A DNA stretch of 20,326 bases, from the IMG/VR virus record IMGVR_UViG_3300008219_000145, positions 1 to 20,326 of that record; one strand, given 5' to 3'. Of the stretch, positions 1,060-19,033 are shown piece after piece. How positions within the stretch are numbered: the first letter of the stretch is position 1; every line of letters begins with the position of its first letter. The notes beneath the pieces were generated by a model that saw only the letters and a program-made list of their open reading frames with translations, was not told where the DNA came from and made no database searches. Made by a program: the position numbers and the translations under genes. The stretch is from a virus.

Positions 1060-4000
1060 ATGGCAGAAAAAAGCTTTAAATTTATTTCACCTGGGGTGTT
1101 TGTTAATGAGATTGATCAGTCCCAATTACCTGCGGAAAATCTCGCCCTGGGGCCGATTGTTATTGGCCGCTCCCTAAGAGGACCAGCGATGGTCCCTGTG
1201 ACTGTTCGCTCCTTTGACGAATTCGTTCAAAAGTTTGGTGAGCCTGTCGCTGGCATTAGTACTGATGATGTATGGCGCGATGGTAACTTAATGGGTCCAA
1301 CTTACGGCTCATATGCTATGCAAGCATGGCTTAAAAATGGTGAAACTGCCACATATGTCCGTCTTTTAGGCACTGAACACACTGAGCGCGCCACTGCTGG
1401 CCGTGCTGGCTGGCATGCAAATGCGCTGAGCGTTAATGCCACGTCTTCTGCTGTTGGTGGCGCATATGGCCTCTTTGTATGGCCGTCCTCAAGTTGCAGA
1501 ACCACCACGGGCGTCCCCGCAGCGGGTGATGGCCACCTGCCGATAACTGGCACCTTGGCTGCCGTTTGGTATCTTCCTGCGGGCGGCAAAGTTGTTCTCT
1601 CGGGCACGCTGAGAACCTTTGGACCCGGCGCGAATTCCACCTTCGCTAATGCTGCTGCCGGTAAGACATCTGTAACTGGAACAAACGCACTGTTCACATC
1701 CGAAGGTGGCTCTGGTCTCGGTAATGAATTTCGAGTGGAAATTTACGACGATTCGGGAGCCCTTAGCAAGGGGACGAGATTTAACTTTAATAAGACTTCT
1801 GATTTGTTTATTAGAAAGGTGTTTAATACAAATCCTGCGAAGACTAATACTGATTTGTATTCTGCGGATACCACTGAAACATACTGGTTAGGAGAATCAT
1901 ATGAAGAATGGCTTAGAGAGGATGAGTGGGTAATACCCTCCCTTAGAAGCTCTACGACTTGGCATGGCGCGATTTTTGGAATGGGCAATACGAACGTCAA
2001 TCACGCAGAGAATAGAAAGGCGTTCCAAAGAGCAGCCACCGGCTGGTTTATTGCTCAGGACATGAGCGATAATAATACTGCGTATCGGGCAGCGAACATG
2101 CCCAGGTTGTTCCGCTTGCATGGCAGAAACGGAGGCGAGTACGATCAGGCACGGTATAAGGTGTCAATTAGTGATATTAGCTATTCATCGAACCCCGATG
2201 CAGACCCCTATGGCTCGTTCACCGTAAGAGTGAGACGCATGCAAGACTCAGACGTAAACATTCAAGACGTTGAGGTATTCACTAATTGTAATTTGAATCC
2301 AAATTCCGATAACTATATTGCCAAGAGAATTGGTGATAGATATGCTGATTGGGATGAGGCGTCAAGAAGAAATATTGAGTATGGGCAGTTTGTAAACCAA
2401 TCTGATTATATTCGTGTTGAAATGAACGAGTCTCTTGAAGACAATGGCGAGCCGGAGTGGCTACCATTTGGTGCCTTCGGTCCTCAAAGATATCTAAAAT
2501 GGGGCCTCATTGGAGATGGGCATGGGTATAACCTAGGCGAAGCCGCAGGGGCCGCAGGGGCCTCTAATTTTAAGAGTGTAACAAATACGACAGTTGGCAC
2601 AAGCGAAACTGCTATTTCTGTCGCAACCACCCCTGGAGGCGTCGCTGGCGGTCGTGGAGGCGGATGGCTCTCGTCCACGGATGTCACATACGTTGTAGAC
2701 TCACAATCTGATAGTACTCTTGCAGTCGGGACTGTTCCTGTGCAAGGTTTCAATGACATTGCGGCCTTCTTGGGAGAAACCGCTCAGCCCCTTACGGGCG
2801 GGTGCCTCTTCACTGGCACGGTTGTATACCCAAGATTGCAATTAAGAAAGAGTACGCTGGACGTCAGCGGGGCGCTGGCCAATTCGACCGACGCCTATTT
2901 CGGTGTATATACCGATGATGAAAACGGACTATTCGATAAATCTGTTAAAGACTTGCTTCGTGCATTCCCTGACACACTGGATTCCACTACGACAAATACA
3001 CAGACTGAGAATTCTTTTATATTCTCACTTGATGATATTGGCCCGTACAGTGGCTCTGCGGAGGGGACGGCCCCGCATGTTGCCGGCTATACAGGTGAGC
3101 ATGCTAGGTACCAGGAGTTCCTGCGCGTCGAGGGAAGATCATTTACTGCTGGTGCTGTAAATGCTGGCATTGTCACCAATGGGGCGGGGGCAAAGGTCCT
3201 CTCTCCAACGAGTGGCTCATCTTATAAAAACGTATTGGATGCTGGCTATGATCAATTCACCACTGTTATGTTTGGTGGTTATGATGGCTTCGACATTACA
3301 GAAAAAGAGCCGATCTTAAGAACGCTGAATGGCGGGACTGTTTTTGGTGAATTAAATAGTGCAAATTACTACACTGTTAGAAGAGCCGTTGACGCAATTC
3401 GTAAGCCGGAAGATGCCGAGTTCAATTTGGCTTCTGTTCCGGGTCTTAAGAATCCGAGTCTTACACAATATCTCATTGAGATGTGCGAAGAGAGAGGCGA
3501 TGCGCTTGCCGTCATTGACCTTGAGAATGATTATATTCCCAAGGCAGAGTCTGCACTCGCTGAGGCGGTTCGTAAGCCGGTTGTATCAACCGCTATTACG
3601 ACTCTTCGAAATAGGTTTATTAATAACAGCTATGGTGCAACGTATTTCCCGTGGGTGCAGATTAGAGACACGATCAGCAATGCCCTGGTTTGGGTACCAC
3701 CGTCTGTTGTTGCTCTTGGAGCCATGTCCTTTACGGATCTCGTCGAGGCACCCTGGTTTGCGCCTGCTGGCTTTAACCGTGGTGGGCTAACTGCCGGTAA
3801 CGCTGGTGTGACTGTTGTAAACATTTCGCACAAGCTATCGGCCAAGGAAAGAGACGACCTGTATGCTGACAATATTAATCCGATTGCATCATTCCCGTCT
3901 GAAGGCATTGTGATCTTCGGTCAAAAGACGATGCAAACAAAGGCATCGGCCCTTGATAGAATTAATGTAAGAAGAATGCTTGTCTTCGCCAAGAAGGCCA

Positions 4001-4272
4001 TTTCCCAAGTCGCAGCGCAGCTTCTGTTTGAGCCTAATGTGCCTGCAACGTGGTCAAGATTCACCAATAACGTAACTCCGATTCTAAACGATATGAGATC
4101 TAGATTCGGCATTGATGATTACAAGCTGGTGTTGGACGAAACCACGACGACGCCGGATTTGATTGACCAGAATACAATTTATGCGAAGCTATTCCTTAAG
4201 CCCACCAAGGCGGTTGAATTCTTCCTGATTGACTTCATTATAACGAATTCAGGGGCATCATTTAGCGATTAA
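1060..4272 (+). CDS. Contractile tail sheath protein, T4 gp18-like, oversized
   Basis: Main protein of the contractile sheath that surrounds the tail tube and shortens to drive it into the host. The N-terminus (residues 5-60, SPGVFVNEIDQSQ) is the classic sheath start, and the last ~335 residues carry the conserved core: GGYDGFD near residue 738, WVPPSVVALG near 877, APWFAPAGFNRGG near 898, a helix-rich block with NVRRMLVFAKKAI, and a closing strand ending FLKPTKAVEFFLIDFII, the interlocking C-terminal arm. At 1070 aa it is far longer than T4 gp18 (659 aa). The extra length lies between about residues 100 and 720, a region rich in Gly, Ala, Ser and Thr with glycine stretches near 530, probably added surface domains. 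The start has GGGAG nine bases upstream. The tube gene follows, as in T4. Confidence 0.95.
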   Translation: MAEKSFKFISPGVFVNEIDQSQLPAENLALGPIVIGRSLRGPAMVPVTVRSFDEFVQKFGEPVAGISTDDVWRDGNLMGPTYGSYAMQAWLKNGETATYVRLLGTEHTERATAGRAGWHANALSVNATSSAVGGAYGLFVWPSSSCRTTTGVPAAGDGHLPITGTLAAVWYLPAGGKVVLSGTLRTFGPGANSTFANAAAGKTSVTGTNALFTSEGGSGLGNEFRVEIYDDSGALSKGTRFNFNKTSDLFIRKVFNTNPAKTNTDLYSADTTETYWLGESYEEWLREDEWVIPSLRSSTTWHGAIFGMGNTNVNHAENRKAFQRAATGWFIAQDMSDNNTAYRAANMPRLFRLHGRNGGEYDQARYKVSISDISYSSNPDADPYGSFTVRVRRMQDSDVNIQDVEVFTNCNLNPNSDNYIAKRIGDRYADWDEASRRNIEYGQFVNQSDYIRVEMNESLEDNGEPEWLPFGAFGPQRYLKWGLIGDGHGYNLGEAAGAAGASNFKSVTNTTVGTSETAISVATTPGGVAGGRGGGWLSSTDVTYVVDSQSDSTLAVGTVPVQGFNDIAAFLGETAQPLTGGCLFTGTVVYPRLQLRKSTLDVSGALANSTDAYFGVYTDDENGLFDKSVKDLLRAFPDTLDSTTTNTQTENSFIFSLDDIGPYSGSAEGTAPHVAGYTGEHARYQEFLRVEGRSFTAGAVNAGIVTNGAGAKVLSPTSGSSYKNVLDAGYDQFTTVMFGGYDGFDITEKEPILRTLNGGTVFGELNSANYYTVRRAVDAIRKPEDAEFNLASVPGLKNPSLTQYLIEMCEERGDALAVIDLENDYIPKAESALAEAVRKPVVSTAITTLRNRFINNSYGATYFPWVQIRDTISNALVWVPPSVVALGAMSFTDLVEAPWFAPAGFNRGGLTAGNAGVTVVNISHKLSAKERDDLYADNINPIASFPSEGIVIFGQKTMQTKASALDRINVRRMLVFAKKAISQVAAQLLFEPNVPATWSRFTNNVTPILNDMRSRFGIDDYKLVLDETTTTPDLIDQNTIYAKLFLKPTKAVEFFLIDFIITNSGASFSD
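2542..2559 (+). repeat. Tandem 9-base repeat inside the sheath gene
   Basis: GCCGCAGGG occurs twice in direct succession and is followed by GGCC; in frame it encodes an Ala-Ala-Gly-Ala-Ala-Gly-Ala run. It sits in the variable middle part of the sheath and probably forms a flexible linker in a surface domain. It may mark local slippage growth of this region. Confidence 0.5.
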
Positions 4273-4326: not shown

Positions 4327-4866
4327 ATGGCATCAACGTTTTGGACAAGCCCTGATTTACAACCGAAAAGAAAGTATAGATTCTTGATTGAGTTTGGACT
4401 TCTAACTGGTAAAGTATTAGATAGTTACTTCTGTAGATCAGTAACGAAGCCCTCCTACTCCATTGGCATCCAAGAACACGCTCTTCTTGATTACAATTTC
4501 CGGTTCCCGGGACGAGTTTCCTGGGATCCGATTAGTGCCACCTTCGTTGACACCGTTCAAGAGAACGCTGCAAATAGATTGTATGAGCTTCTGCTCTCAT
4601 TCGGATACGTTGATCCATCTGAGACGACTGATAAGCTATCAAAAACTATTTCAAAGAAAGCGGTATCCGAGAATATTGGTAGTGTTATTACTCTTAAAGA
4701 ACTACATGCGAATGGAACTACTGTTGGTACGTGGGTTCTAAATAATCCTATTATTTCAAGAGCGACCTTCGGTGACCTTAGCTATGCGGACGATACGCTG
4801 GTTGATTGCACGGTCGATATCACGTATGACTGGGCGAGATACGAGAGAAGCGTCCTAGGCGTTTAA
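4327..4866 (+). CDS. Tail tube protein, T4 gp19-like
   Basis: Protein of the inner tail tube, stacked as hexamer rings through which DNA passes. At 179 aa it is close to T4 gp19 (163 aa). It shows the family layout: an N-terminal segment (RKYRFLIEFGLL) forming the first strand, a C/K-P segment near residues 38-44 (CRSVTKPSY), a DYNFRFPGRVSWDPISATFVD strand pair, and a final D-C-T-V-D-I-T-Y-D-W-ARYE strand like the gp19 end (VTLALDYWE). It directly follows the sheath gene, the standard order in T4-like phages. AGGAG nine bases upstream supports the ATG start. Confidence 0.85.
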   Translation: MASTFWTSPDLQPKRKYRFLIEFGLLTGKVLDSYFCRSVTKPSYSIGIQEHALLDYNFRFPGRVSWDPISATFVDTVQENAANRLYELLLSFGYVDPSETTDKLSKTISKKAVSENIGSVITLKELHANGTTVGTWVLNNPIISRATFGDLSYADDTLVDCTVDITYDWARYERSVLGV

Positions 4867-4885: not shown

Positions 4886-5746
4886 ATGAGTGTAGATAGG
4901 AATTCTGGACGAATCGGTGTCCATGGTTCTTCTAGCGATTCTCCTGTTGTTGAGGCAATGGAGAATTTGCTTAATTTCCCAAAACCGACTGAATATGTTG
5001 ATTTGCCGTCGGCGGGAAGCTTTTATCCAGAGGGGCATCCTCTAGAGGGTGCTAATACGGTTGAAATAAACTTTATGACTGGAAAAGAAGAAGATATGTT
5101 GACCAATGTCGAATATATCAGAAGAGGCGTCGCGATTGACAAAGTGTTGCAAAGCCTTGTCCCGTCGGAGATTAATGTTAATCAATTGTTATCTGCCGAC
5201 AAGAGCGCACTTGTGATTGCGGCTCGTGCAACGGCATATACGAATGAATATAAAACGCAAGTAACATGTCCTAGTTGTGGCGATGCGACAACATTTGCAT
5301 TTGACCTGGAAAAGACCAATGTATACCAGGGATATACGGAAGACGACCCTACGGAACTAAATGTGGCAAGACTAGAGGGGTCTCAATTTTCGATTACGCT
5401 GCCTCTAACGGAAGTAGTAGTTAAAGTAAAGCTTTTAACCGGGGAAGATGAAAAGAGGATGTTCGATATCGTTACGTCCGATAAGAAGAAGAATAAAAGC
5501 CTTAATTCCGTATCGTCAGACACGCTAAAACAGATTGTTGTCAGCGTTAACGATATAGATGATACAGAGACCATAAAGTTCTTCCTAGAGAGCGCCCCAG
5601 CGGCCGATTTGGCCTTCCTCAGGGAAAAGTATAAGATGCTGAACCCAAGCATTGATCTGAAACAGGATTACGCTTGTGGGGCTTGTGGATACGAGGAAGA
5701 GGTGGAGCCTCCTATCGGTATCGATTTTTTATACCCAAGGAGCTAA
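4886..5746 (+). CDS. Baseplate/tail assembly protein, T4 gp26-like (T4_baseplate family), zero-frame product
   Basis: This 286-aa protein carries the signature of the T4 gp26 family: DLPSAGSFYPEG at residues 39-50 followed by VEINFMTGKEEDML, typical of these proteins (LPS-G-YP then a methionine-threonine-acidic block). Two CxxC pairs, C128/C131 and C264/C267, probably bind one zinc ion as a split ribbon. gp26 is needed for baseplate hub assembly in T4. Its place here, between tube and tape measure, is where other tailed phages keep the tail assembly chaperones, so a chaperone role for the tape measure is plausible (inference). Start ATG has AGAGGA five bases upstream. The last codons contain a T TTT TTA slippery site that would shift ribosomes into the overlapping -1 frame (see next entries). 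Confidence 0.85.
   Translation: MSVDRNSGRIGVHGSSSDSPVVEAMENLLNFPKPTEYVDLPSAGSFYPEGHPLEGANTVEINFMTGKEEDMLTNVEYIRRGVAIDKVLQSLVPSEINVNQLLSADKSALVIAARATAYTNEYKTQVTCPSCGDATTFAFDLEKTNVYQGYTEDDPTELNVARLEGSQFSITLPLTEVVVKVKLLTGEDEKRMFDIVTSDKKKNKSLNSVSSDTLKQIVVSVNDIDDTETIKFFLESAPAADLAFLREKYKMLNPSIDLKQDYACGACGYEEEVEPPIGIDFLYPRS
5725..5731 (+). other. Candidate programmed -1 ribosomal frameshift site, T TTT TTA
   Basis: The heptamer TTTTTTA is placed exactly in the X XXY YYZ register of the gp26-like frame (GAT TTT TTA, residues 280-282), the form that permits both tRNAs to slip back one base. A -1 slip moves translation from the zero frame, which stops at 5744-5746, into the frame that stays open until 6004. 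That second frame codes for a protein-like sequence but has no convincing start codon of its own. The rule and its use between tail tube and tape measure genes are well known from lambda-type phages (G and G-T); use in this gp26-like gene is inferred. Confidence 0.7.
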
Positions 5747-6006
5747 TTGAGTGGCTCAACGAGATTGTCAAGATTAGCCTTAGGAGCGACTTATTCTTCC
5801 CGGAGGAATACGCTCTTGAGTATGGCGTTGACATGCACACTCAGATAGACCAGATGAAATATTATGGTGGGTGGAGCTTTATCGAGGCGTATTCTCTGCC
5901 TGTTGGACTAAGAAACTGGTACTACAAGCAGCTTGTTGAGCGCAAGAAAGATGAGCAAAAAGAGTACGAGAAGGCATCTGGATCCGAAAAAGTAACACTT
6001 GAATAG
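5731..6006 (+). CDS. -1 frame extension of the gp26-like protein (tail assembly chaperone-like C-terminal part)
   Basis: Read from 5731 after a -1 slip, this gives 91 residues beginning IPKELIEWLNEIVK and containing DLFFPEEYALEYGVDM, YGGWSFIEAYSLPVGLRNWYYKQLVERKK and a charged tail. The fusion product would be 373 aa (282 from the gp26-like frame plus 91). The residues look like true coding sequence: amphipathic, with an aromatic-rich core and a basic/acidic helical end, and the pattern of an aromatic block, then L-P-V-x-L-R-x-W, is familiar from small genes that follow gp26-like genes. No ATG occurs before 5833, and TTG codons at 5674 and 5683 lie inside the upstream gene without a good ribosome binding site. 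An AAGGAG at 5737-5742 has no correctly spaced in-frame start. Independent translation from a rare ATT at 5746 cannot be excluded. Confidence 0.7.
   Translation: MPKELIEWLNEIVKISLRSDLFFPEEYALEYGVDMHTQIDQMKYYGGWSFIEAYSLPVGLRNWYYKQLVERKKDEQKEYEKASGSEKVTLE
5737..5781 (+). other. Possible frameshift-stimulating RNA structure
   Basis: Five bases after the slippery site, AAG 5737-5739 and GCTAAT 5742-5747 can pair with ATTAGC 5773-5778 and CTT 5779-5781, leaving a two-base bulge. Inside the enclosed loop TGAG 5748-5751 pairs with CTCA 5755-5758. The spacing is typical for stimulators of -1 frameshifting. This was folded by eye without energies, so it is only a candidate. Confidence 0.35.
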
Positions 6007-6386: not shown

Positions 6387-8885
6387 ATGGCCAATGGACA
6401 AGACCTAAGACAGCTTCAAACTTCTATTATATCCGCGATTGAGTCTGGCTTTAAGCGTGCAGCCGCAGCGGGATCTGGCGTTAATGTAGATATAACGGGA
6501 GACTTTGATCTCGAAAAAGCTAAGATTGACGCAAACTATCTTGCGGATGCGATGAACCAAGTTAATCATCTTAGCGAAGAGATTAATAATAAGTTATATA
6601 GCAGAGTTTCGATTAGCCAAGAACAACTCTCGGTCTCACAGAAGGAAGTGGACAATGCACGAGAAGCCTTGGCTCAAGAGCTAAAAAAGCTCAATATGCA
6701 TGAAAACGGTGTCCGCCTTTCAAAGGAGGACCTGACAGCGGTAAAGCAGAGTGTCTCCCTTGAACGCCAACGCCTCATGAATGCCGAGAGGCGCTTAGCG
6801 GTGGAAAATGCCATTGTGGGTGCCCAAACGCAAGCAGTCGGCGCTGCTGACTCGCTACTACGGCGATTTGCGGGAATTACGGACCATTCACAAAAATTCC
6901 TAGGAAACATATTAACCGCTTCTACACAAGGAGGTCGAGGAATATCTGCATTAACGCAGAGTGTGTCGGCCTTTGGCAGGACGATCACCAGCAGGGTGCT
7001 CAATCCTGCAAATATGCTGGGTTCTGTCTTAGATAAAATAATATTCTCAACCATGAAAATGGCAATGGAATATAGCAATGTTATCTCGCAGTTTCAGCAG
7101 AGCACAGGCCTAGTTGGAATGTATAATATGGAAATCGAACGCGTCTGGAGAAATAACGGACAAGTTGCGATGACCATGGGACAAGTTACGGGCTCTATAT
7201 CGGCACTATTAAACAACTTTAGAAGTTTTGGACTTTTAACCAAAAGCTCTAGAATGGAGTTGGCCGAGTTCAACGCTGTATTGGCTAAACTAGGAATCTC
7301 GACACAGCAGGCAGCCAGGGCGCAAGATTATCTCATGGGAACACTTGGAAATACTGTTGCCCAGTCCAAAGCATACCTTCTTGAGCTTCGTGGCCTAGCA
7401 GAACAGCTTGGGATGCCCGCTGGAGCCCTTGTAGACGAATTTAACCGTGCCATGCCTGTTCTTGTTCGATACGGGCAGTCTGCGAGGGGGATGTTTGCTC
7501 AGATGGCCAAGCAGGCCCAATCCCTACGCATTTCAATTGGTGATTTGATGCAGATTGCGTCTAGGTATGATACGTTTGATACTGCGGCTCGTCACGTTGG
7601 ACGCTTAAATGCCCTTTTGGGCGGCCCGTATTTGAACAGTGTTAGAATGTTAAATGCAACGGAAGGCGAGAGAGTCGAACATATCATTCAATCGATGAAG
7701 GCGTCAGGGCTACAGTTCAATCAGCTTAATAAGCATATGCAACTTGCAATCCAGACAGCAGCGGGGATTAGAGATTTAGATACGGCACAGCGTATCTTCA
7801 ATATGACGACTAGGCAGTATACGGCATATAAACAACATCAAGCTGAGACAGAAGACGCGGCCCGCAAGAAGGCAGCGCTAACGGTAAGCATTATGGAGCA
7901 GCTTACCGCTATATTTAACCAATATGGAGAACAAATTACAAGAGTGGCTAGTGCGACTGGGCGGTTCTTAAGCTGGATTTTAGAATTAAATGATAGCATC
8001 ATAAAAGCGACTGGTTCTTCGTGGAATTTAGCCTCCGTAATGGCTACTTTGGCCGGTGGTATGTATATTGGAAAAATGATTCTTGGTGTAGGTAGCCTGA
8101 TTGGCATGTTTAGGGGGCTCTCCGGAGGAGCAGGGGCAGCCGGGGGTGTTTTAACGAAGCTTACCGGCACGTTTGGAGGCCTGGCAAGTAACACCGGGGC
8201 CGCAGCGTCTATGGGGACCAGATATGTTGACACCTTAGTGATGATGCCCAGGCCCGCTGCCGCTGCGTCAACGGCGATGAGTGGTCTTGCGATTAAAATA
8301 GCTGCTGTGTCTGCCGGGGTTGGCGTTGCCGCCTTTGGTATAGGGAAGCTGGTTAGCGCAATACGCGGCGTTCCAGAAGAGATAACGTTCAAGGGAAGCC
8401 AAGATGTGGCCCAGTTGTCTATGGCGGTAAACGCCATGGATGAAAGCAAGGTTTCCTTGGTTAGCCAGTTGAGCAGTAACCTTTCCGGGTTGCAGTCTAG
8501 CATTAATAACATTAAAGTAGGGCCCCTTAGGGAAATGGGGGGCTTATTAGCTCAGTTCTCTGCCATTGGCGGAATTAATTTTAATTTCAATGCGGACAAC
8601 ATTATGAAGTTAAAGGGCGTTATTTCTGAGCTTAAAAGTTTGGATGTTGATAAGCCTGCTGCCATGGCTGGCTTTTTTGCTCAGGCGGCCAGACATGCAG
8701 AAATAGCGCAGTCAAAAATATCCCCCATTGGAGCACCACAAGGAGGTGTCCAACTTACGAACCTGGCGATACCTCCAATCCAAATTGAGGCTATATTAAA
8801 TGGCCAGAGAGTGGCTTCGATCTTGGCAGAACAGATAACACCAGTGGTAGCAAGTCACGTAGCAAAGGCACTTAGTAAAGCCTAG
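6387..8885 (+). CDS. Tail tape measure protein
   Basis: An 832-aa protein with the build of a tape measure, the extended protein that fills the tube during assembly and sets tail length. Residues 55-145 are strongly heptad-like and charged (coiled coil). Residues 210-540 are mostly helical with many Gln and Ala. Two hydrophobic glycine-rich stretches, about 547-590 and 632-655, could insert in the host membrane during DNA entry. The end is again helical (IPPIQIEAILNGQRVASILAEQI). It follows the tube and chaperone-like genes as expected. By the usual rule of about 0.15 nm per residue the tail would be about 125 nm long (inference). GAGGAG overlapping the preceding stop is the ribosome binding site. 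No lysozyme or peptidase motif is seen. Confidence 0.85.
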   Translation: MANGQDLRQLQTSIISAIESGFKRAAAAGSGVNVDITGDFDLEKAKIDANYLADAMNQVNHLSEEINNKLYSRVSISQEQLSVSQKEVDNAREALAQELKKLNMHENGVRLSKEDLTAVKQSVSLERQRLMNAERRLAVENAIVGAQTQAVGAADSLLRRFAGITDHSQKFLGNILTASTQGGRGISALTQSVSAFGRTITSRVLNPANMLGSVLDKIIFSTMKMAMEYSNVISQFQQSTGLVGMYNMEIERVWRNNGQVAMTMGQVTGSISALLNNFRSFGLLTKSSRMELAEFNAVLAKLGISTQQAARAQDYLMGTLGNTVAQSKAYLLELRGLAEQLGMPAGALVDEFNRAMPVLVRYGQSARGMFAQMAKQAQSLRISIGDLMQIASRYDTFDTAARHVGRLNALLGGPYLNSVRMLNATEGERVEHIIQSMKASGLQFNQLNKHMQLAIQTAAGIRDLDTAQRIFNMTTRQYTAYKQHQAETEDAARKKAALTVSIMEQLTAIFNQYGEQITRVASATGRFLSWILELNDSIIKATGSSWNLASVMATLAGGMYIGKMILGVGSLIGMFRGLSGGAGAAGGVLTKLTGTFGGLASNTGAAASMGTRYVDTLVMMPRPAAAASTAMSGLAIKIAAVSAGVGVAAFGIGKLVSAIRGVPEEITFKGSQDVAQLSMAVNAMDESKVSLVSQLSSNLSGLQSSINNIKVGPLREMGGLLAQFSAIGGINFNFNADNIMKLKGVISELKSLDVDKPAAMAGFFAQAARHAEIAQSKISPIGAPQGGVQLTNLAIPPIQIEAILNGQRVASILAEQITPVVASHVAKALSKA

Positions 8886-14184: not shown

Positions 14185-15174
14185 ATGAGTAGTAGAGAGT
14201 TAATTAAAAGAGCCTCAATTTATTGCCGTGAGGGCGATTTAATCAAGAAATGCCCCCTTTTTTTAAAAGAGAGGATGCTTGAGATTGAAGGAGTGTTGAG
14301 ATCATATGAGAGATCTTTTAAGGCGCTGGGGTTAGATGAGGATGAGAAATTATACGCCGGATGGGTTGCTCAAGAGCGTCGGGAAGTCCTTGAGGCTATT
14401 GCTGAACACATATTAAACACTGTCGGAAAGCCGGATAATTATGAGAGTCTCTCTAAGATTTATGATGTGGTGAAAGAGATAGAGGGGAATTTTGATTGCT
14501 CGAATAAAAGAATCAAATACGATATGTTTCGTGCTAAAACTGGAAGACTGGCTACAAAAAGCAATAGTTTTCCAATTTTAAATCTGCCAAAAGAAAGGCG
14601 AGTTTGTATAACACCAAAAAAGGACCTGTTGGTTGAATTTGATTATAATGCAATGGATTTACGAGTACTGCTGGGGCTGAGTAATGCGAGGCAGCCCGCC
14701 GTAGATATCCACGACTGGATAAGGAAAGAGGTGTTTTTAGACACTATTTCGAGAGAAGAGAGCAAGAAAAAGGCTTTTAGCTGGCTATATGGAAAGCGGA
14801 TTCCCGAAGCGGCAAAATTTGAAAAGATATTCAATAAAGATAAAATTTGTGAGGAATTTTATGAGGATGGGCAAATTAAAAACTTGTATGATAGAGTTAT
14901 TCAATGCGATTCGGATTTTTTTGCATTAAACTACGTAGTACAGTCCACGGCGAATGACCTATTTTTTGAACAAGTGTATAAGGTGAAAGAAAGGTTGGGC
15001 TTGCATAGCTCGAAAATCTTATTTTGTATTCATGACTGTCTTGTTCTAGACGTTGATAAAACCGAACTCCACCTTTTAAAAGAAGTAAGAGAAATTCTTG
15101 AGAATACAAGACTTGGAAAGTTTAAAATCAATATCAAAGCGGGAAAAAATTACGGAGACATGAGGGCGCAATGA
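14185..15174 (+). CDS. Minimal family A DNA polymerase (palm and fingers only)
   Basis: Only 329 aa, yet all family A polymerase motifs are present in order. Numbers of E. coli Pol I in brackets: R121 in TGRL (668); motif A FDYNAMDLR with metal-binding D153 (705); motif B R190, K194, F198, Y202-G at the exact 4-residue spacing (754, 758, 762, 766); N249 and Q253 (845, 849); motif C IHDC with H283 and metal-binding D284 (881, 882). Two conserved acidic residues differ: the steric-gate Glu 710 is Asp158 and Glu 883 is Cys285. About 110 residues precede TGRL, enough for only a reduced thumb; the 3'-5' exonuclease domain is absent. Motif A-B and B-C distances (37 and 94) are shorter than in Pol I (49 and 128), so fingers are trimmed. 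AGAGG lies four bases upstream; the TGA overlaps the next ATG. Confidence 0.9.
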   Translation: MSSRELIKRASIYCREGDLIKKCPLFLKERMLEIEGVLRSYERSFKALGLDEDEKLYAGWVAQERREVLEAIAEHILNTVGKPDNYESLSKIYDVVKEIEGNFDCSNKRIKYDMFRAKTGRLATKSNSFPILNLPKERRVCITPKKDLLVEFDYNAMDLRVLLGLSNARQPAVDIHDWIRKEVFLDTISREESKKKAFSWLYGKRIPEAAKFEKIFNKDKICEEFYEDGQIKNLYDRVIQCDSDFFALNYVVQSTANDLFFEQVYKVKERLGLHSSKILFCIHDCLVLDVDKTELHLLKEVREILENTRLGKFKINIKAGKNYGDMRAQ

Positions 15175-16010
15175 AGACTGTAATAGGGCTAGGCGGCGCG
15201 GGCTGCAAAATCGCAGAGAAGTTCTCGGATCGAGAAGGCTATAAAGTCTATAAAATAGATGTTGGCATCAAAGGGACGAGGTGTTTTTCTTTTCCCAAGA
15301 TTGCCTCTATGGAAGAGGCAGAAGAGTCAGTACCGAGACTGAAGACTTTTTTTAGAGGCATCACTAAGAATGTCGTTTTCATAATGGCCGGTAGCGGCAA
15401 AATATCAGGTGCGGCGCTAGCAATCCTAGAGCAAATAAAAGACAAGAATATAGAGGTGCTTTATGTGCAGCCAGATACGGACACCTTGAATGGCATTAGC
15501 AGGACGGGAGAAAATATTGTACGCCAGGTCCTACAGAACATGGCAAGGTCTGGGATCTTTCGAAAGCTGTACCTTTTCAACAATCAGAAGATACATGAGA
15601 TATTAGAAGAAGTCCCGCTGTTAAAATTAAATGACTCAATTAATGAAGTCATAGCGCGCTCGTATGATTTGTGCAATTTTTATGAAAAGGAAGATAGCGT
15701 ATTTGAGCAAAATGGAGAAGTAGACGATATTAGTAGGATATCCACATTAGGCTTTATTTCCTTTAATGATAATGAGAGCAAGATGTGCTTTGATTTGCAC
15801 AATATAAGGAACACGGAGATTTTTTACGTGGTAAACGAAAAGATCCTTGACGAGGATTCGAATCTTCTTTATAAGATCAAACAACAAGTAAAAAGCATGT
15901 CCGGTGAAGACATGAAAAGCTTGAGCTATTCTGTGCATCCCTCAGAGTATGAGGGTGTTCAGGTGTACTGTAGGTTGCACACACATTTTATTCAACAAGA
16001 GGAGATTTAA
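15171..16010 (+). CDS. FtsZ/tubulin-like GTPase (divergent), candidate phage cytoskeletal protein
   Basis: The 279-aa product has the layout of the tubulin/FtsZ fold. It opens with TVIGLGGAGCKIAEKF (residues 3-18), like the FtsZ start KVIGVGGAG-N-V-RM, and then YKVYKID like the FINTD strand. VVFIMAGSGKISGAALAILEQI (68-89) matches the position and shape of the FtsZ glycine box (VFITAGMGGGTGTGAAP), but the glycine run is shortened. Next come a strand-loop-R block (IEVLYVQPDTDTLNGISR, like VVTKPFxFEGxxR), a long helix, LYLFNNQKI (like LIVIPNDRL), and a helix NDSINEVIARSYDL (like ADEVLxxAVxGI). The last strand QVYCRLHTHF fits the C-terminal domain. Phage relatives (PhuZ, TubZ) form filaments that position or segregate DNA; that role here is inference. 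It overlaps the polymerase stop (ATGA). A different Rossmann-like protein is the alternative. Confidence 0.6.
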   Translation: MKTVIGLGGAGCKIAEKFSDREGYKVYKIDVGIKGTRCFSFPKIASMEEAEESVPRLKTFFRGITKNVVFIMAGSGKISGAALAILEQIKDKNIEVLYVQPDTDTLNGISRTGENIVRQVLQNMARSGIFRKLYLFNNQKIHEILEEVPLLKLNDSINEVIARSYDLCNFYEKEDSVFEQNGEVDDISRISTLGFISFNDNESKMCFDLHNIRNTEIFYVVNEKILDEDSNLLYKIKQQVKSMSGEDMKSLSYSVHPSEYEGVQVYCRLHTHFIQQEEI

Positions 16011-16011
16011 A

Positions 16012-16758
16012 ATGTTAGACATGGAAAAAATGAAAGCGAAGTATCGCGCCCTTAAAGAGGGCGGAGAAAAGAGGGTTGATCCTCTCAATTGGAAGCCAGA
16101 AGACGGCTCCCAGGAAATTCGGATCCTGTGCCCCGAGGATGGAGATCCCTTTAAGGAGTTCCATGTACATTATAGAATTGGCGAAGAGGCACCATTCCTA
16201 TGCCCGAAGAAGAACTATGGAGAATCATGTGCTATTTGTGAGTTCGCATGGGGCCTCTATGAGGAGGGCGATACAAAGAGTGCGAAGGAGTTGCTGCCAT
16301 CGGCGCGATACGTATCTCCTATTGTTGTTCGTGGTGATGAAGCGGGGACCGTTAAGCTTTGGAATTATTCTCGAACGATTTATCGGGATCTGATCGGCTA
16401 TGTTAACAATCCCGAGTACGAGGACATCACCAATGTCAAAGACGGCCTTGATCTAACTCTTACTTATGATTCTGAAGCGGCCAAGAATCGCCAACTGGCA
16501 ACGAAGGTTGTTCCAAAGCGGCATAATAGTCCACTAGCGGGGACCAAAAAGGAAATTGACGCAATTTTCGCTACGATGCCGGATGTAAATGAAAAATATA
16601 ATAAGAAGACTTCTGTAGACGTAGCGGGGGTGCTAGACAAGTTTTTGTCTGCTGACCCAACGGGAGGAGAGTCCGGAGGGGTACAGAAGTACGGCACCGG
16701 AGGGTCTGAGGAATCAGAGATTGATGCCGTATTTAAGCAACTAGAAGAAGGTAGCTAA
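16012..16758 (+). CDS. Single-stranded DNA-binding protein, T4 gp32-like
   Basis: Coats single-stranded DNA during replication and recombination and helps load UvsX and the helicase. The start chosen, ATG at 16012, has AAGAGGAG seven bases upstream and gives 248 aa (T4 gp32 is 301 aa); a longer frame from 15949 would overlap the previous gene by 60 bases without benefit. A zinc site matches gp32 in spacing: H51-x12-C64-x8-C73-x2-C76 (T4 H64, C77, C87, C90). After it come ARYVSPIVVRG and TVKLWNYSRTIYRDLIGYVNNPEY, the OB-fold part. A long linker ends in an acidic C-terminal tail (SEESEIDAVFKQLEEGS), which in gp32 recruits partners. The gene is coupled to uvsX by TAATG. Confidence 0.88.
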   Translation: MLDMEKMKAKYRALKEGGEKRVDPLNWKPEDGSQEIRILCPEDGDPFKEFHVHYRIGEEAPFLCPKKNYGESCAICEFAWGLYEEGDTKSAKELLPSARYVSPIVVRGDEAGTVKLWNYSRTIYRDLIGYVNNPEYEDITNVKDGLDLTLTYDSEAAKNRQLATKVVPKRHNSPLAGTKKEIDAIFATMPDVNEKYNKKTSVDVAGVLDKFLSADPTGGESGGVQKYGTGGSEESEIDAVFKQLEEGS

Positions 16759-17870
16759 TGGGGGCCTCGATGGCAAGTAAAGAAGAAACATCCGGCTTTG
16801 ATCGAATTAGGAATATTCTAAATAAAAAGGCAGGCATGACAGTTGCCTATAATTTAGAAAAAGAAAATCCTACTGACGTTGAAGAATGGATCTCTACGGG
16901 CTCCCGCTGGCTGGATGGCATTATATGCAAAGGCCAGCTAGCGGGGGTGCCGGTAGGAAAGGTGACAGAAGTTGCAGGTTTGGAGTCGTCTGGCAAATCG
17001 TACTTGGCTGCACAAGTGGCTGCCAATGCACAAAAGATGGGGATTCAAGTTGTATATTTTGACTCTGAATCAGCCCTGGATTCTTCGTTTTTGAACAGAG
17101 CAGGTTGCGACTTAAATGGGTTAATTTATACCCAGGCTAAGTCGGTGGAGTTTGTTTTTGATGCTATTGAAACCTTACTAAAGGATACGGATGATAAGTA
17201 TCTGTTTATATGGGACTCATACGCATTTACTCCTTGTGAGGCAGAGCTTGAAGGCGGATACAATCCAAGAAGCGATATTGCATTAAAGGCTCGTATATCT
17301 AGTCTTGCATTATCCAAGCTAACTCAAGTAATCGCCAATAGGGATGCGACTCTGGTTGTTTTAAATCAACTTAAGACGAACATAACTACGAGTATAGCTG
17401 AAAAATATACCGATCCCTGGGTGACTTCTGGTGGCAAAGCCTTCCATTATTCGTTTTCTTTGCGAATATGGTTGACCGGTAGAAAAGGCAAAGCATCTTT
17501 TGTATATGACGATAAAGGATTCCGAATCGGGTCAGAGACGGGAGTTAAAATCAAGAAGTCTAGATTCGGTACGATGGGCAGGACTTGCCAGTTTAAGATT
17601 CTTTGGGGGGAGGATGTCAAGATCAGAGACGAAGAGTCGTGGTTGGATGCCCTCAAGGGCTCGGAGAACCTGAAGTCCGCAGGCGCGTGGTATACGCTGG
17701 TGCACGAAGATGGTACCGAAGCGAAATTTCAGAAGACGACCTGGGTTGAGAAATTGCAAGATGCCACCTTCAAGGGACGCGTTTTGCAACTAATGGATCT
17801 CGAAGTGATTCAAAAATTCGAATCCCGAGAGGGAGAGGCGGCACGCTTTTATGAAGAGGACGCCGAATAA
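16758..17870 (+). CDS. uvsX: RecA/UvsX-like recombinase
   Basis: ATP-dependent strand-exchange protein that, with the gp32-like protein, drives recombination-dependent replication and repair. In 370 aa (T4 UvsX 391) it shows Walker A GLESSGKS at 74-81, the catalytic acid in FDSESALD (E104), Walker B YLFIWDS with D153, the DNA-linked LNQLKTNI segment with Q204 (RecA Q194 position), and SGGKAFHYSFSLRIWL at 224-239. The C-terminal part around residue 285 onward carries WGEDVKIRDEESWLDAL, usual in UvsX. ATG at 16758 has AAGAAGG six bases upstream; a second ATG at 16770 is possible but less well placed. It lies directly behind the SSB gene. Confidence 0.95.
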   Translation: MGASMASKEETSGFDRIRNILNKKAGMTVAYNLEKENPTDVEEWISTGSRWLDGIICKGQLAGVPVGKVTEVAGLESSGKSYLAAQVAANAQKMGIQVVYFDSESALDSSFLNRAGCDLNGLIYTQAKSVEFVFDAIETLLKDTDDKYLFIWDSYAFTPCEAELEGGYNPRSDIALKARISSLALSKLTQVIANRDATLVVLNQLKTNITTSIAEKYTDPWVTSGGKAFHYSFSLRIWLTGRKGKASFVYDDKGFRIGSETGVKIKKSRFGTMGRTCQFKILWGEDVKIRDEESWLDALKGSENLKSAGAWYTLVHEDGTEAKFQKTTWVEKLQDATFKGRVLQLMDLEVIQKFESREGEAARFYEEDAE

Positions 17871-18033
17871 GAGATTTAAACGAGGAGCCGCTGTTAAGAT
17901 AAAGTGTTCTCCGGGTTGCGGTCTAGTTGTTAAGTACATGAAGAACAAGGGGGCTATTCCCCTGACCGTTCAGGTCTACTATAATAACAAACTGGTTGTT
18001 TTCCCTGAGCACCTTCTTGAAGAGGTAGGATGA
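17851..18033 (+). CDS. Small unrecognised basic protein, possible SH3/KOW-like barrel
   Basis: A 60-aa protein whose start overlaps the uvsX end by 20 bases. The N-terminus is very basic (MKRTPNKRFKRGAAVKIK); then C19-x3-C23 and short strands (GLVVKYM, LTVQVYY, KLVVFPEHLLEEV) suggest a small beta barrel as in KOW or SH3-like nucleic-acid binders. Such a fold is judged only from the strand pattern. GGGAGAGG lies 12 bases before the ATG, a rather long spacing, so translation may rely on coupling. Position between uvsX and the exonuclease suggests a replication or recombination accessory role. Confidence 0.7.
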   Translation: MKRTPNKRFKRGAAVKIKCSPGCGLVVKYMKNKGAIPLTVQVYYNNKLVVFPEHLLEEVG

Positions 18034-18037
18034 TGGG

Positions 18038-19033
18038 ATGGATGGATACAATAGGATACTGATTGTTGATGGCTTAAATACTTACATGCGTGCTTATGCC
18101 GCAAACCCCTCTATGTCGACGAACGGTATACATATTGGCGGAATTGTGGGGACTCTGAAGATTTTACAAAAAGTATTTAGAGAAGTAAAGCCCACAAGAG
18201 TTGTTATAGCTTGGGACGGAGCAGGCGGATCAAAAAAAAGAAAGCAAATCAATAAAGATTATAAGAGTGGACGAAAACCAATTCGGCTAAATAGGAGTCA
18301 CAACCTATGCTCGGAAGACCAAGAAAAAGAGGGTAGAATCCGGCAACACCTTAGATTAGTTGAGTATTTCAATTACATGCCGTTTAAACAAATTATTGCT
18401 GACGGTGTTGAGGCTGATGACTTGATTTCCTGGGTGTGTCAAAGCCATCTTTGTGAAGAATGGCAAAAAGTAATTTTATCTAATGATAAAGACTTTTTTC
18501 AGATTTTAGATCATTGTACGGTACTAATTAGACCAAGTAGTGACAAGCCTTTGACTGCTAGGAGTGTGATTGATGAATATGGAATCCACCCAAACAACTT
18601 TGCCCTTGCGAGAGCCATTTCAGGCGATAGAAGCGACAATCTCAAGGGTATCAAAGGCGTTGGTCTAAAGACCGTCGCAAATAAGTTTCCTTTTTTAAAG
18701 GAAGATACCTTGCATCCAATAGAATATATTGTGCAATATTGCAAGGACAATTATCAAGGCTATAAAGCTCTGGAGAGAGTTGCAGAAGGCAAGAAAATAA
18801 TAAAAAACAACTACGACATAATGCAATTGTACTCTCCAAGCATAAGCTTCCAAACAACACAAACCCTAAAAGAAGAATTGAAAAGCAAGCGACTGATGAA
18901 TAACCAGTCGGGCATCAAAAAAATGCTTGTGCAAGATGGCATTTTTGGTGTAAATTTCGATGAACTCTTTGCTTCACTAAACAGGATAGAAAGAAATGAA
19001 AGATACCTCAGCGAACTTCGCAAAGTACGGTAA
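18038..19033 (+). CDS. 5'-3' exonuclease / RNase H of the FEN family
   Basis: Structure-specific nuclease that removes RNA primers and 5' flaps, as T4 RNase H or the N-terminal domain of Pol I. In 331 aa (T4 RNase H 305) the metal-binding residues are seen in order: ILIVDGLN (D11), VVIAWDG (D60), EADDLI (E125, D127, D128), LSNDKDFFQI (D150, D152), and SGDRSDNLKGIKGVGLKTV (D197, D200 and the helix-three-turn-helix DNA grip). KKRKQINKDYKSGRKP at 66-81 is the usual basic clamp stretch. In Pol I this domain is fused to the polymerase; here it is a separate gene about 3 kb from the minimal polymerase. The start has AGGTAGGA upstream. Its end overlaps the helicase start by 38 bases. Confidence 0.93.
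   Translation: MDGYNRILIVDGLNTYMRAYAANPSMSTNGIHIGGIVGTLKILQKVFREVKPTRVVIAWDGAGGSKKRKQINKDYKSGRKPIRLNRSHNLCSEDQEKEGRIRQHLRLVEYFNYMPFKQIIADGVEADDLISWVCQSHLCEEWQKVILSNDKDFFQILDHCTVLIRPSSDKPLTARSVIDEYGIHPNNFALARAISGDRSDNLKGIKGVGLKTVANKFPFLKEDTLHPIEYIVQYCKDNYQGYKALERVAEGKKIIKNNYDIMQLYSPSISFQTTQTLKEELKSKRLMNNQSGIKKMLVQDGIFGVNFDELFASLNRIERNERYLSELRKVR

Follow-up and report, generated by a model that had tools for sequence, protein, structure and literature searches.

A Probable Programmed -1 Frameshift in the gp26-like Tail Assembly Chaperone Gene of a Marine T4-like Phage with +1 Relatives

In phage lambda, a gene located between the tail tube and tape measure genes gives rise to a short tail assembly chaperone, gpG, and through a -1 frameshift to a long form, gpGT (PMC5009743). 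According to the same review, T4 is the exception to G/GT frameshifting in long-tailed phages (PMC5009743). T4-like tail assembly chaperones with poly-T frameshift sites have been reported by Vladimirov, Gautam and Davidson (Virology 2022); as cited in PMC12846349, that work describes a common protein family with short and long forms and with poly-T -1 sites in the TAC-N genes. The two-gene arrangement of T4 itself, with a separate short and a fused long chaperone, has likewise been described before (Vladimirov et al. 2022, cited in PMC10274946). An earlier note on the locus analysed here, which knew of no frameshift in the T4 gp26 family, is corrected on this point by the same work, as cited in PMC10274946 and PMC12846349, and the idea of a frameshifted T4-like chaperone is not new in kind. 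The TAC locus of Vandenendeviridae is also comparable in that its TAC-N ends in a poly-T motif where a -1 shift is conserved (PMC12846349). However, it belongs to other phage families and has a GTTTTT motif, and it is likened to the present locus by motif and position rather than by gp26 homology.

The window, by which we mean the whole stretch of DNA analysed, is a 20.3 kb record of an uncultured virus and covers part of a T4-like tail module. Its source is a marine T4-like phage. The gp26-like protein (Table 1) belongs to family PF12322 (T4_baseplate, gp26/gp51) with an E-value of 2e-14 and a score of 54.0 bits against the gathering cut-off of 24.5, and matches phrog_150 with an E-value of 5e-18. 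Its locus is flanked by tail tube and tape measure genes, as is found for TAC-N/TAC-NC pairs. We propose that the locus very probably makes its tail assembly chaperone in two forms by a programmed -1 shift, like lambda G and GT. This equivalence had been suggested in the earlier note, and a -1 shift into the extension is by a wide margin the best explanation in light of the relatives, T4 gp51 and the neighbouring genes. The gp26 proteins differ from gpG and gpGT in being roughly twice their length and in having CxxC motifs, and the likeness is one of gene position and of short and frameshifted long forms. Directly after the tail genes, the region 14185-19033 contains replication genes, with translations that by reading resemble a family A DNA polymerase fragment, a single-strand binding protein, a RecA/UvsX-like protein and a 5'-3' exonuclease.

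Table 1. Features of the tail module around the gp26-like gene, in window coordinates.
Feature	Position	Strand	Details
Tail sheath gene	1060-4272		1070 residues; match to known sheath families confined to the C-terminal part
Tail tube gene, upstream neighbour	4327-4866	+	phrog_4542, E 1e-16
gp26-like gene, putative short tail assembly chaperone (TAC-N)	4886-5746	+	286 aa, two CxxC pairs; PF12322, phrog_150
Candidate slippery heptamer T TTT TTA	5725-5731	+	codons GAT TTT TTA, in register
Zero-frame stop TAA, predicted end of short form	5744-5746	+	13 bases after heptamer
-1 frame extension, predicted C-terminal domain of long form (TAC-NC, about 373 aa)	5731-6006	+	91 codons + stop
25-residue stretch opening the extension, absent from relatives	5731-5805	+	alignment
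Conserved core of extension (...MKYYGGWSFIEAYSLPVGLRNWYYKQL...), predicted helical	5806-5991	+	alignment with 31 relatives; model pLDDT 77; hhalign
103-codon ORF	between extension and tape-measure-like gene
Tape-measure-like gene, downstream	6387-8885	+	phrog_167, E 5e-7

The gp26-like gene ends with the codons GAT TTT TTA TAC CCA AGG AGC TAA. As claimed in the earlier note, the heptamer T TTT TTA conforms to X XXY YYZ in the correct codon register, and a -1 shift resumes at 5731 (ATA CCC AAG...) and enters a frame that stays open for 91 codons before a stop at 6004-6006. The +1 frame closes 4 nt after the gp26 stop, and the extension is reachable by a -1 shift only. T TTT TTA is also the slippery sequence of HIV-1 gag-pol. 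The same junction is present in two longer contigs, with zero differences over 1600 bases, and in a third contig that is identical up to 5976. Past that position this third contig, L002, diverges sharply from the window within the final codons of the extension. The extension of the window on its own has no family match in PHROGs or Pfam; its core matches the profile of the marine extensions with an hhalign probability of 99.5.

In the proposed mechanism, most ribosomes would stop at the zero-frame TAA and release a TAC-N of 286 residues. A minority would slip by -1 at T TTT TTA, with the P-site TTT and the A-site TTA re-pairing one base back on TTT TTT, and would resume at ATA to complete a TAC-NC of about 373 residues with a helical C-terminal domain. 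By analogy, TAC-N and TAC-NC would each bind the tape measure protein, and TAC-NC would use its additional domain to recruit subunits of the tail tube. The register, the frame, the conservation of the site, the family membership and the identity of the neighbouring genes are as given by sequence comparison; we infer the slippage itself, its efficiency and the binding of the tape measure protein.

The heptamer alone is weak evidence because it is expected by chance in 7-20% of cases, and its significance comes from the relatives. In-register X XXY YYZ heptamers occur in the genes of the window at a rate of 0.0077 per codon, corresponding to 7% per 10 codons and 21% per 30, and synonymous resampling of the last 30 codons of the gp26-like gene yields T TTT TTN in 18%. 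The earlier note had also reported a foldable stem at a distance of five bases from the heptamer. The closest hairpin (5740-5757, 6 bp) begins nine bases after the heptamer, with a z of -1.0 against shuffled sequences, and longer pieces have z values of -0.4 and +0.2, none folding better than shuffled sequence. The window also has no Shine-Dalgarno (SD)-like element at the spacing of 8-9 bases seen at cyanophage-type sites. A downstream stimulatory structure is often present at canonical -1 sites and is not obligatory. Stimulators have been described as unnecessary for low-level frameshift sites of tailed phages (PMC5009743).

The gp26-like protein and the extension were modelled separately, resulting in a pLDDT of 89 for the former and of 77 for the latter (model mf5d8953d1987). 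In comparison of the gp26 model to the PDB, the first rank is taken by the HK97 tail assembly chaperone 2ob9 (residues 21-118, Z 5.9, rmsd 5.3, 85 aligned) and the second by YqbN 3klu (residues 164-252, Z 5.5, rmsd 3.4, 82 aligned), a prophage tail chaperone. Both of these Z values are below 8, and the third-ranked row has a Z of 3.6. The matches of the predicted gp26 fold to tail assembly chaperones are weak but specific.

Searches of IMG/VR with the extension and with the gp26 alignment found 486 and at least 599 encoding stretches, respectively, and the fetched loci provided 138 distinct usable junctions, the window included. All 137 distinct marine relatives have TTY YTT TGG followed by the extension in the +1 frame. 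This site at the end of the gp26 gene is present as TTT TTT TGG (123), TTC TTT TGG (10) or TTT CTT TGG (4) and is absent from none of them. Its second codon is never TTC, even though TTC accounts for a quarter of the Phe codons elsewhere in the same genes. The codon after TGG is always NCT and the two are read as GGN CTN (Gly-Leu) in the +1 frame. When variability is followed base by base, zero-frame wobble is seen upstream and +1-frame wobble downstream, with the changeover at TTT T. TTT TTT TGG or its upstream remainder is also found at 14 of 15 further junctions from metagenome bins, the remaining one (L364) reading TTT TTT TTC CCT.

Known +1 frameshift sites include CUU UGA C of prfB and CUU AGG C of Ty1. 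The YUU UGG of the relatives resembles them in its shift-prone P-site codon ending in UU and in an A-site first base that permits +1 re-pairing. It differs from them in the lack of an A-site stop codon and in upstream SD-like sequences, which at the marine +1 sites are scarcer than in control windows; the comparison applies to the relatives and excludes the window. The +1 group also carries a bias in the codon before the T run. Asp, Asn and Ser codons preceding TTT TTT end in C rather than T at 98:0, compared to 1859:3403 elsewhere (Fisher 3e-44, a value uncorrected for relatedness), and GAT is found only where TTC follows. Read most simply, these codon counts point to selection in the +1 group against the -1 heptamer T TTT TTT.

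In the phylogenetic tree, the window is placed inside a set of phages otherwise using +1, with Mel-JY01, immuto and LR756508 outside (support 97-98). A first tree had the window nested in the marine +1 group beside L116 (0.96), but a better-modelled tree allows a position as sister to the whole marine group (AU p 0.80). Since this sister position is not rejected, we keep only the placement of the window, together with Mel-JY01 and immuto, in the wider set that uses +1. Nested or sister, the simplest history for the window is a change from +1 to -1, and we infer that its site originated from an ancestral +1 shift. Compared to its +1 relatives, the window has lost the TGG, has a T before the run (GAT) and has gained 25 residues where the extension begins. 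It also differs from the T4-like chaperones of Vladimirov et al. 2022 in that its clade is otherwise +1, its heptamer ends in A and its extension is 25 residues longer. We lean toward the view that a very large uncultured clade of marine T4-like phages frameshifts +1 at YUU UGG and avoids codons that permit -1, the window being a descendant that changed to -1. If this is true, the direction of frameshifting would be reversible within one gene with the fused product kept.

Two other groups of gp26 genes, with 76 cyanophage-type and 62 jumbo-phage-type distinct junctions, have the -1 arrangement. An in-register heptamer is located at the same place in all 138 of these junctions, being T TTT TTC in 132, A AAT TTT in five and T TTT TTT in one; in the five, a Phe-to-Ser change erased T TTT TTC and left A AAT TTT. 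The -1 arrangement is represented among named phages by S-PM2, P-SSM2, a KVP40-like Vibrio phage, Cr30, Mendera, Ci1, Aeromonas 65, RL38J1, Phosso, Munch, Serratia BF, PA5oct, Atu_ph07 and RAS14, and the +1 arrangement by Mel-JY01, immuto, RM378, SP-15, LIS04 and GXN1. In cyanophage-type genes, an SD-like sequence precedes the heptamer by 8-9 bases in 72/76 junctions, against 12.5% in the control; an SD-like upstream stimulator is of a kind known from dnaX. The earlier note had looked to an alignment of homologues for conservation of the heptamer and the frame relation. Site and frame relation are kept (137/137 in +1 and 138/138 in -1), but the direction differs between clades. The site of the window is unique in its clade, so that conservation backs the strategy more than the exact heptamer.

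The lack of a convincing start codon for the extension, pointed out in the earlier note, holds on inspection, as the first ATG in its frame is at 5833, within the conserved part. TTG codons are available in the extension frame at 5674 and 5683, the former with AGGA six bases upstream, and the extension could be a separate gene translated from TTG 5674 as an independent start, or by translational coupling or reinitiation close to the end of gp26. In some phages, an ATG is located at the gp26 stop or immediately after it, and a separate gp51 is annotated there in S-PM2 and P-SSM2. In Ackermannviridae (L187, L192, L102) a small downstream ORF is in the -1 frame with no canonical heptamer and with a TAATG overlap in 2/3, and translational coupling may there take the place of frameshifting. 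We nevertheless consider a separate gene in the window very unlikely. In 38 of the 138 marine junctions, the window included, there is no ATG, GTG or TTG between the site and the conserved core, and a start codon with an SD-like tetramer is found at only one of the 138, compared to 82 of 121 gp26 starts. The heptamer, or its avoidance, tracks the frame relation, and the SD-like element of the cyanophage-type genes, 8-9 bases before the heptamer, is too distant from the later ATG. The three main groups surveyed contain no homologue that combines the absence of a slippery site with a clear start codon and ribosome binding site; Ackermannviridae come nearest to this.

Two further explanations would dispense with ribosomal slippage. 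RNA polymerase could slip on the T run, which is T6 in the window and T7 in most relatives, to yield the long form. However, the runs are only three or four T long in the TTC TTT TGG and TTT CTT TGG variants, which argues against transcript slippage, the TTC variants arguing also against a -2 slip. Nor do the A AAT TTT sites form long runs, and there are constraints on both the codon register and the codon ahead of the run that transcript slippage would not require. We find transcript slippage scarcely credible. An assembly error that lost one T from a single in-frame fusion deserves next to no weight. One added T would indeed join the frames, but the identical T6 is present in three other contigs (L002, L003, L004), a single fused ORF would give no short form, and a fused ORF is found at the junction in 0/137 marine relatives.

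The programmed -1 shift that we favour can be compared to the situation in T4, in which gp26 and gp51 both match PF12322 over their full length (gp51 with an E-value of 4e-52), gp51 being 48 residues longer. The C terminus of T4 gp51 matches the cyanophage extensions (phrog_634, E 1e-23; hhalign probability 95.4, shuffled controls at most 1.5). Thus gp51 is a gp26 homologue with the extension fused in frame, and T4 has one gene for the short chaperone and another for the long one. The gp51 annotated at the extension of S-PM2 and P-SSM2 (L185, L186) carries the label 'baseplate hub assembly catalyst'. Such cyanophage genes most likely represent the part of gp26 that is read after the -1 frameshift and not separate genes. 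Cyanophage gp51 has been described as being without the first ~200 residues of T4 gp51 (Sullivan et al. 2010, PMC3037559). T4 gp51 is needed for assembly and absent from the particle (PMC3004832), as expected of a tail assembly chaperone. In the annotation of phage AM101, gp26 and gp51 are already called tape measure assembly chaperones.

The literature searched, in which Vladimirov et al. 2022 is represented by the papers citing it, contained no prior report naming +1 in the gp26 family. Novelty seems to lie in the large +1 clade, in its avoidance signature and in the likely switch of the window from +1 to -1. In contrast to the earlier listing of T4 as an exception, our survey indicates that the gp26 family frameshifts widely. 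The direction, +1 or -1, varies between clades with a measurable footprint of codon avoidance, and these clades offer natural material on what sets frameshift direction. A correction is also offered to the annotation of many T4-like genomes.

A few phages depart from these arrangements. LR756508 has no obvious +1 site. In Synechococcus phage S-SCSM1 (L100:5687), the T TTT TTC heptamer is present with the extension in the +1 frame, a mismatch explained either by an insertion or deletion in the record or by an ATG at which translation starts independently. The marine +1 extension (for example, L085 from 2583) has a weak match to DUF6760 (PF20546, E 0.003, below the cut-off). DUF6760 is found in contractile injection system loci, and those loci may have a similar chaperone pair.
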